NCBI GenBank assembly: GCA_039545295.1
Contig: BCIK01000006.1
Location: 744,001 to 808,000 of the forward strand
Direction: 5' to 3'
DNA length: 64,000 nt
Source of the DNA: Udeniomyces pyricola
Taxonomy: Eukaryota; Basidiomycota; Tremellomycetes; Cystofilobasidiales; Mrakiaceae
Below are positions 45,341 to 48,300 of the stretch, in pieces. The notes under the pieces were generated by a model. It saw only the letters and a program-made list of their open reading frames with translations, ran no database searches and was not told where the DNA came from. Position numbers and translations under genes: made by a program. Positions within the stretch are counted from its first letter, which is position 1, and every line of letters starts with the position of its first letter.

Positions 45341-48300
45341 CTACCACCGGGATCCTCCTCCTCCGTAGCCGCTGTCACCGCCTCGTCCTCCACCGTCTGA
45401 AAAAAAAAAAAAGCGCAGAGTAAGGAGATAGGCGTTTCGGTCTGTCAGCATCATGCACGCATCCAAGAAGACAACAGGAATAGATGGCCCTCAATACATG
45501 AAATGTGGGTACTTACAACCTCCTCCTCCGTAACCTCCTCCACCTCGACCACCTCGGCCTCGGCCTCCACCTCCTCCACCTCGGGAGCCGTACATGGCCA
45601 TCTGCTCGAGCTCGGTCGGGATCTCCGACTTGGACTCCTTAAGAATGGCAACAAGCTCTCGGGCGGACTTGGAGTTCTCGGTCGCTGTTAGAATTGAACA
45701 TAAGCACTGGTTAACGACATGTCCATGTACACGATCAAGACAGATTGCAAGACCAAAAAAAAAAAGTTGAAGGAACGAACTGAAGTAGGTGTAAGAAGTT
45801 CCAGTGGTTCCGGCTCGACCAGTTCGACCAATTCGGTGGATGTAGTCCTCGCAGTTGTTAGGGAAATCGTAGTTAATGACGTACTTGATGTCTTTGACAC
45901 TGTGATGAGGATAGGCGGCAGTCAAGACAGCGTCAGTGTCGGCAACTTGCATGAAGAGGCGTGGGAAAGCCCAAGCAATCTGAAACCAGGATCAAGACTC
46001 ACTCTGTGAAAGGCAAGAATCAAGTCCAACAGGTACAGGGCGAAGAGCATTTGCAGGACGAGGTAACCAAGCGAAGCAAAGAAAGAGGTGGGTAACATGG
46101 CGGTTAATATCGGCAGGGGCAAGCCCGAGAGCTTTATAACATAAGTCGGGTGGTAGGCGAGGAGGGCAGGAGGTGGTGATGGCGAATTGTCGAAAGAACT
46201 GAAGAGGATCAAAGTAGCATCGTGTCTTGGTCGACGTCCGAGCCAAGTTGAACACGAGCGGCAAGCCATGCGCCGGTCCCAAACAGCGACTGGAGTCAAG
46301 GACTCCAATTGACTGTCAGGGTCATTGCGGCGGACCGACCATGGCAGCTCCACACGAGAGGGCAGGAGCTCACCAGAAGACGCATGACGGCGTCGTCTGG
46401 AAGCCACCCGAGTCTCGAACTGAAGTGCACTCTGAGCGAAGAGCAAACTGTGCAACGCGACAACCTTCCCCATTCAAGGGAAAAACCTGAAAGGAACTAG
46501 GGGAAAGTCGAAACGCTGCAACAATACTGCTCCTAGCACGTGGAGGTCGGAAGGCGATAGTCGGTAATGTCGCGTCGACAGCACAAAACAGAGGCAGGCA
46601 GAGCTGAGTCGAGCAAGCGAGCAAGGTCCAGAAGCGCGAGGGATCCGTTGGTGTTCGAACGAGTGGCGGCCGACCCTTGAGAACCGTCAAAAGCGACCAA
46701 AAAGAGCGACCCCGAGACGAGACAAGACGAGAGCGGTGCAAGTTTCGAATTCGGATTCCAAAGAGCGGCACGGCCTCCAGGTCCCAACGCCCGCCACACA
46801 CACACACACCACAAGCACTCGAAAACCGAGCGGTGGTAAAGGTGGGAGTAGACAGGAGACAAGGAAATCATAGAGGTTGACATGCTTCAAGTGGACGGAA
46901 GACGAGACAAGACTGCTAGACGACTGACACGACTGAACAGTTGTTCAGTGAACGCGGGGCGTCGAGGTACTGATTGCTTGGAACGGCGAGGGGGAAGGCG
47001 ATGTACACTCGAGCGCGGATATCGACGAAAGAGACAATGGAGCTAGGTTGACTAGCGATCGGCGGCGAGCAAAGAGACAAGAAGCAGGCGTCCAACCAGC
47101 GGCGATTGAGCCAAGTTTGACGAGACATGAACGACGCTGGTTACTGAACGATGGCTCCTCGGAATGCCCGCGCACGAGCGCTGAAACTTCTGCGACATCC
47201 TCAGGAAATGCTGAAGAGGGCGGGGAATTGGAAGATATGCAAGGGGAGGAGGATAGGGGATGGGGAAAGAGTGCAGGGAGAATGTGATGGGGAAGATACA
47301 CGGAGGGATACATACCAAGACCACGAGACGCAACCTGTGAAGCAAAGGTAGCACGAATGGCAAAGTACGACATCAGAAATGGAATCGACGCAGGAAGTAT
47401 AGTCATGTACAACACCGCGTGGCACTACTCACATCAGTGGCAATCATGATGGGCGATCGGCCCGACTTGAACTCTCCAAGAACCCAATCTCGCTCCTGCT
47501 GCTGCTTGTCTCCGTGAATGGCAAGCGCGGGCCATCCATCCTGTCGGAGGTACTTGGTGATGTCGTCAGCGACTCGCTTGGTAGCGGTGAAGATGATGAC
47601 CTTGGCGTTCTCGTTCGAGATGGTATCAAGGTGCTTGACGAGCTTGCCTCGCTTCTCGAAGTCAGTGCAGACCTCGACGATCTGGGCGACGTTGTGGTTG
47701 GCGGAGAGCTCCATGGATCCAATGTTGACCTGGATGGCGTCCTGGAGGAAATCGGCAGCGAGTCGCTGAACCTCCTTGGGCCAGGTGGCCGAGAAGAGAA
47801 GGGTCTGTCGGTCGGGTCGGATCTGGGCGACAATCTTCCTAATCTGGGGCTCGAAACCCATGTCAAGCATTCGGTCCTGTAACGGTGAACAGAGCGAAGA
47901 GCGGAGGCAATAGGCAAGAGACGGGAGGAGAGGAAAGAAAGAAAGATAAAAGAACGCAAAGATGAGTCAGCGTTGGGAGAAAGGTAGTTATGGAAGAAAG
48001 TAAGTGAAAGCATCGACCGAAACGTGATACTTACGGCCTCGTCCATGACAAGGTAGGTGACTCGTCGAAGGTTGGTTTTGCCGGACTCGAGCATGTCGAT
48101 CAATCGACCGGGAGTAGCGACGACAATCTCGGCTCCTCGCTGGAGATCTCGGATCTGACCACCCTTGGGGACACCTCCGTAGACGGCAGTGTTCCTAATT
48201 CGGGACGACTTGCCGAACTTGGTGCACTCGGCCTGGGTCTGAACAGCAAGCTCTCGGGTAGGGGCAAGGATGAGGACGATGGGTCCGTCACCGGGGGAAA

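Follow-up and report, generated by a model that had tools for sequence, protein, structure and literature searches.

The DBP2/p68 gene of the basidiomycete Udeniomyces pyricola raises the question of how a reading frame is kept where the exons on either side of a conserved motif do not join in frame. We analysed a window of 64,000 nucleotides (contig BCIK01000006.1, positions 744,001 to 808,000; coordinates without a contig name are those of the window, and a slash marks a splice point). An earlier sequence-only reading of this window had proposed that one nucleotide, spliced as an exon of its own, completes the missing codon, and we weighed this proposal against the other ways in which the frame could be mended.

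The DBP2 gene and its reading frame

The DEAD-box RNA helicase gene occupies 45341..49790 on the minus strand and was modelled with 14 exons encoding 547 aa. Pfam recognised the DEAD (PF00270, 177 bits) and Helicase_C (PF00271, 117 bits) domains, and the top-scoring relatives, in the best 120 of 7981 matches, were tremellomycete DBP2 proteins with about 84% identity. We take the label "tremellomycete" from this best-match list because a 26-row protein tree gave no firm placement: the nearest entries by path were a JGI protein and Naganishia, and a single weak fork set the protein beside Tilletia. The other exons are undamaged and conserved, sharing 80-84% identity with the tremellomycete sequences aligned to them. 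A search of the genome (25.0 Mb, 38 contigs) turned up no second DBP2; other helicase stretches reached at most 66% identity. A search of 49 stretches from viral contigs returned no relative, and a search of genome contigs listed 80 loci of at least 500 relatives, every title being bacterial. Eight RNA family matches, all microRNA-like and all below the gathering score, fell in a G-rich stretch within 49415-49510, and we read them as chance. Downstream of the gene, single N letters stand at 44834, 44838 and 44842 inside a G run.

Exon 10 (19 nt, 47316..47334, minus strand) reads VASRGL-G, and its last base, the G at 47316, is the first base of codon 434 and directly precedes GTATGTAT. Exon 12 (119 nt, 45781..45899, minus strand) starts with a T at 45899 that directly follows CATCACAG; this T is the third base of the same codon, and VKDIKY follows. 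Between the two exons, the single A at 46003 (46003..46003, minus strand; exon 11) is flanked by TGCCTTTCACAG and GTGAGTCTTG, the intron ends facing it being TTTCACAG before and GTGAGTCT after. Together, G, A and T give GAT, the codon for Asp434, and restore RGLDVKD, with the predicted mRNA junction GATGTCAAAGAC; the full join is then a reading frame of 1644 nt, that is, 547 aa plus the stop. When the A is omitted, the frame shifts within motif V (RGL-VSKTSST...). The base has a serviceable splice site on each side, an acceptor before it and a donor after it, and exons 10 and 12, as bounded by their own sites, are in frame only when it is included.

The coordinates of the three bases and their splice sites, the break caused by joining 47316 directly to 45899, and the recovery of Asp434 in an uninterrupted 547-aa helicase had all been put forward by the sequence-only reading, and all were borne out. 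Its statement that every other exon boundary fits without special assumptions nearly holds: no further frame break was found in the gene model, and the exception is a GC-AG intron (GCAAGT; 49256-49087, minus strand) in the Gly-rich N-terminal part, which is flanked by exons of 30 and just 15 nt. A zero-length-exon recursive splice site was rejected, as AG would then abut GT and the sequence is AG-A-GT. In all likelihood, DBP2 has at 46003 a genuine and probably constitutive exon of one nucleotide, the A; we infer from the genomic letters that the RNA is spliced through it.

Strength and rarity of the splice sites

Splice sites were scored with a matrix that excluded introns 10 and 11 and was built from 33 others of this genome (11 from DBP2 and 22 from a signature scan). 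The scan, which superseded an ab initio coding model (31 candidates), yielded 24 introns, two of them in DBP2 (intron 11 and one more), and found 25 donors vs 5 in the reversed sequence. On this scale, whose percentiles are rough because few introns went into the matrix and 22 of the 33 came from a scan that forced GTRNGT donors, the acceptor before the A scored 9.84 (79th percentile of the 33) and the donor after it 10.36 (94th percentile), consistent with the proposal of a strong 3' site and a consensus 5' site exactly one base apart. On the same rough scale, the outer sites were intermediate, with the donor of intron 10 at the 42nd and the acceptor of intron 11 at the 48th percentile.

The 1416-nt interval between exons 10 and 12 holds two AG-A-GT, one at 46003 and one at 46431 (46431..46431, minus strand). 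The second copy was rejected as an exon, its donor GTGCACTT scoring -3.6 and being unusable. When the interval was shuffled 5000 times with its dinucleotides preserved, 52% of the shuffled sequences contained some AGAGT, and none of the 5000 reached the summed score of the 46003 site (9.8 + 10.4), nor did any of 3000 in a repeat run. Across 528,000 sense bases, from the two strands of 264 kb that include the window, 46003 alone among 504 AGAGT reached its own score, and it was also the sole AG-N-GT to do so. The strong pattern YYYYYNYAGAGTRAGT was found eight times on both strands of the 25 Mb, compared with 12 in the reversed control, and about 0.0002-0.0003 occurrences are expected in 1416 bases. 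As the pattern is not enriched over its control genome-wide, the DBP2 case rests on the place of the site and on the frame.

These numbers bear on the reading that an A was lost before TGTC at 45899 by an assembly or sequencing error, in which case the gene would have a single intron of 1416 nt, ending in CATCACAG before ATGTC, and the AG-A-GT would be coincidental. One added base at 45899 would indeed give the ancestral arrangement, and the assembly contains N letters (8 in the window and 961 in a 200-kb sample of contig C1). The coincidence that such an error demands is, however, the rare one just described, the junction at 45899 is not a homopolymer, and the frame of the gene is otherwise unbroken. 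We regard an error of this kind as very unlikely.

Conservation of Asp434 and its junction

We compared 150 homologous proteins, merged from two lists of the best 120 matches each; the query of the second list lacked the Asp and may favour models with indels, and six of the seven exceptions below were already in the first list. Asp was found at the position of Asp434 in 143 of the 150, in line with the near-invariance first claimed for it. All seven proteins with another state belong to a set of 11 models whose sequence gains or loses residues precisely here, and D is present in each of the 139 homologues without one. Residues 433-440 were gap-free in 139 of the 150, and V435, K436 and D437 were conserved in 148, 144 and 147, respectively. 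Within residues 70-500, model indels fell at positions 433 and 434 in six and five models; besides a one-residue indel site at 366 (seven models), the Asp434 junction is the main break site. On our reading, these indels reflect gene predictors tripping on a difficult conserved intron. One point against a one-base exon here is that 139 of the 150 annotated proteins are intact at the junction and give no sign of needing one.

Two of the deviating DBP2 models, from Saitozyma podzolica (P0023) and Pseudohyphozyma bogoriensis (P0145), read RGL-VKD and lack exactly this Asp, and the model of Kwoniella newhampshirensis (P0015) reads RGLDIRY at the junction. A micro-exon may also be hidden in these three genes. 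Seven further basidiomycete models (P0060, P0066, P0085, P0093, P0096, P0106 and P0114) have insertions of 42-204 residues at the junction, probably segments of the conserved long intron that the models left in.

Other ways of restoring the frame

We enumerated all micro-exons of 1-31 nt that keep the frame without a stop (n = 37) and all in-frame joins without a micro-exon (n = 58), allowing donors within the first 200 nt of the intron and acceptors anywhere between 200 nt ahead of exon 12 and 60 nt inside it. The A at 46003 was the best of the 37 micro-exons, with a score of 20.2, followed by a 4-nt exon (10.9) that would give RGLVVVKD. Among the enumerated options, only the A has two good splice sites and leaves RGLDVKD intact. 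An acceptor at 45945 was rejected, as it adds 16 residues and drops the Asp, and so was TTTCAG, a cryptic acceptor within intron 11, whose use leads to a stop 15 residues past RGL. Both splice sites exceeded the training minima in two of the 58 joins: the one that adds 16 residues and a join to 45891.

The most serious splice rival is a join of 47316 to 45891 at CAAAG/ACATC, with the predicted junction GACATCAAG and no micro-exon. It would treat TGTCAAAG (45892..45899, minus strand) as intron and give RGLDIKY instead of RGLDVKDIKY, so that Asp is kept and Val435-Lys436-Asp437 are lost. This join is in frame, neither its donor (8.6) nor its acceptor (3.8) falls below the training minima, and the RGLDIRY of K. 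newhampshirensis is the same sort of shortening. Its acceptor is nevertheless matched in weakness by just 3 of the 33 training acceptors, the three residues it removes are those conserved in nearly all of the 150 homologues, and the eight bases it calls intron still encode them. It would also make coincidences of the better-scoring acceptor at 45899 (7.1) and of the AG-A-GT at 46003, and we consider this join extremely unlikely.

A shifted donor is harder still to sustain. Exon 10 would be extended by four bases to GGTAT/GTATCC (GTATCC at 47306..47311, minus strand), giving RGLGIVKD without a micro-exon and a frame that is open through to the stop. The score of this donor (-2.9) is below those of all 33 training donors, and Gly-Ile would replace, in motif V, an Asp that all homologues without a junction indel share; its use, too, is extremely unlikely.

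The gene might also be mis-spliced or subject to regulated unproductive splicing, most transcripts failing to restore the frame and DBP2 being partial or decaying. The predicted failure products fit such a scheme: retention of intron 11 gives RGLE followed directly by a stop, the TTTCAG acceptor gives the early stop noted above, and skipping of the A gives a frame-shifted product of 550 residues with a changed C-terminus and its stop in the last exon. Retention of intron 10 is predicted to read 123 residues past RGL. Regulated retention of the DBP2 intron is known from S. pombe (PMC4695336). On the other side, the remaining exons are intact at 80-84% identity and the genome search gave no second DBP2, so a functional protein should come from this gene. 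We judge an unproductive gene to be very unlikely, and the one-base exon, the proposal from which we started, is the reading that we carry forward.

A probable conserved DBP2 intron followed by a second intron

Intron 10 (1312 nt, 46004..47315, minus strand) runs from GTATGTAT to TTTCACAG. The residue of yeast Dbp2 that matches Asp434 is Asp425, whose codon has its first base at nt 1273 of the CDS. We take an exon of S. cerevisiae DBP2 to end at this same nt 1273, that is, in the same codon and the same phase as intron 10. Iggo (1991) and Barta and Iggo (1995) are said to have worked on the conserved DBP2/p68 intron. According to PMC4695336, intron 2 of S. pombe dbp2 has a position and length that are shared with S. 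cerevisiae and higher eukaryotes, reduces dbp2 levels and binds Mmi1; the paper also refers to work that suggests autoregulation in S. cerevisiae. The apparent agreement in yeast position and phase, together with the conservation stated in that source, leads us to identify the 1312-nt intron 10 as very probably the conserved regulatory DBP2 intron.

What differs here is that, after one base, a second intron follows, and this 103-nt intron is the new element. Intron 11 (45900..46002, minus strand) runs from GTGAGTCT to CATCACAG, has branch-like sites 33 nt (CTGAC) and 22 nt (TTGAC) before its 3' end, and is close in length to the median of 93 nt for the 24 signature introns, itself among them. 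In a search that skips simple repeats and very common words, no further copy of it was found in the genome at E up to 10; the sole match was intron 11 itself, and an introner or other mobile intron copy was thus rejected. To the eye, intron 11 opens with letters similar to those that close intron 10 (CTTGATTCTTGCCTTTCACAGA vs CTTGATCCTGGTTTCAGAT; 46024-45978, minus strand), which is possibly a trace of the origin of the second intron.

Further probable one-base exons in the genome

The genome-wide search produced a list of 66 distinct AG-N-GT sites (8, 2, 1, 5 and 13 by successive patterns, 3 further and 34 looser), and 33 of them, DBP2 included, were inspected by eye. Three were read as one-base exons. 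The other 30 were set aside as ordinary exon ends or starts or as chance occurrences in introns or non-genic DNA, with one site (L138) undecided, and none of six inspected among the looser 34 was a one-base exon.

The first additional case is one of the eight genome sites with a strong AG-A-GT and lies in an amino-acid transporter gene (A at C3:700331, plus strand; L016, G000:C3:698822-701837). The A completes GAC, the codon for Asp195, in the join ...HPE-G, A, C-FPKAL..., between introns of 121 and 105 nt. The whole join was re-checked. Pfam assigned PF01490 to the 402-aa model, and a 120-aa fragment gave no match over the cut-off. Among the best 120 of 839 homologues, all 120 were gap-free at Asp195, with D in 98 and E in 22.

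The second additional case, found by the second pattern, is in a KTR/MNT mannosyltransferase gene (PF01793; A at C20:391927, minus strand; L137/L141/L142, G000:C20:391101-393100). Here, the A starts the Asn codon of CHFWSNFEI, in the join CHFWS, A, AC-FEIGDLDFWRG, between introns of 151 and 91 nt. Three PDB relatives were matched, and the two with alignments shown read CHFWSNFEI. When the A is included, PF01793 scores 46 bits; when it is omitted, 24.1. The case rests mainly on this motif because the first acceptor is weak (3rd percentile), and 22 of 3000 shuffles reached the summed score.

The base is A in all three one-base exons, and the interval obtained when the exon is ignored is 227-1416 nt, more than twice the median intron, in all three genes. 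The two other cases support that of DBP2 independently, and one-base exons appear to be recurrent in one basidiomycete, as judged from predicted joins and homology. They also weigh against the assembly error considered above, since two other genes would need a like error beside a like site, and three such errors in one genome are implausible.

The AG-N-GT patterns showed no clear enrichment over reversed controls. Of the 33 introns, the strong ones accept the donor in 24 and the acceptor in 5 (7 and 3 of 11 for DBP2 alone), so they would cover about 11-17% of introns, and the three cases found extrapolate to about 17-27 one-base exons genome-wide. This figure is a guess, and it is too high if one-base exons need strong sites.

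Comparison with known systems

The sequence-only reading knew one precedent, a plant APC11 case, which stands but is not alone; plant VPS55, Fusarium CYP621A and Candida snoRNA hosts join it. In Arabidopsis APC11 (PMC4674806), as in DBP2, the gene is nuclear and protein-coding, a single A has AG before it and GT after it, and the frame is lost without it; the APC11 authors propose stepwise (recursive) splicing. APC11 differs in being a plant gene with an interval of 422 nt and in having been tested with RNA and mutant constructs; the DBP2 exon is predicted from sequence. The one-nucleotide micro-exon of plant VPS55 (PMC8831610), absent from reference annotations, shares with DBP2 a conserved GTRAGT donor after the single base (GTGAGT in DBP2); unlike DBP2, it is supported by RNA-seq and RT-PCR and is tied to alternative isoforms.

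Two fungal systems are closer in kind. In Fusarium CYP621A (PMC12940212), a base likewise completes the codon of a conserved motif in a protein-coding gene, in an interval more than twice the usual intron length. The fungus is an ascomycete, however, the exon is a G (AGGGT) with 18 SRA reads, and the case concerns one P450 subfamily. The Candida snoRNA hosts (PMC5033589) have one base between two spliceosomal introns, and the order of splicing is described; these are non-coding transcripts, in contrast to DBP2, with no reading frame at stake. Stwintrons resemble introns 10 and 11 in being two nested or abutting fungal introns that are removed consecutively. We rejected a stwintron for DBP2, where both acceptors and both donors are whole and a full exonic base separates the two introns. 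A mitochondrial cox1 case in Placozoa is also reported.

The literature searched, with subscription papers mostly outside its scope, named no one-base exon in DBP2 or in any basidiomycete. The kind is thus already known and the DBP2 case seems new, the most interesting part being the recurrence in one genome. The identity of the conserved DBP2 intron, the additional precedents, the CAAAG/ACATC rival and this recurrence all go beyond the earlier reading.

Proposed splicing and its implications

In the ancestral DBP2, a single long intron would have split the Asp codon (G/AY), and gain of the 103-nt intron between the first and second bases of the downstream exon would have left the A as an exon. 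Splicing would most likely proceed in two consecutive intron-defined steps, because the factors for the acceptor and the donor should not fit together on one base, so that exon definition should fail there. Were intron 11 removed first, an ordinary acceptor, CACAG/ATGTC, would be formed; were intron 10 removed first, an ordinary donor, CTTGA/GTGAGT, would be formed; either order would result in GAT.

A bolder reading, which we consider unlikely, is that this basidiomycete uses one-base exons regularly, perhaps in the order of twenty genes, and that the one in DBP2, at the acceptor of a regulatory intron, is a switch. If so, inclusion would yield the helicase, skipping would yield a protein of nearly equal length with a frame-shifted, helicase-dead C-terminus, and retention of intron 11 would bring an immediate stop. 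The skipped product should escape nonsense-mediated decay because its stop lies in the last exon.

Three one-base exons in one basidiomycete genome, found by a simple pattern and a homology check, suggest that such exons are overlooked rather than freakish, and the same combination is a recipe for other species. For annotation, every one-base exon makes a conserved protein look like the product of a frame-shifted gene. In fission yeast, DBP2 expression is under the control of the gene's own conserved intron, so a one-base exon at precisely that acceptor would make the order of the splicing steps, and their control, directly testable.
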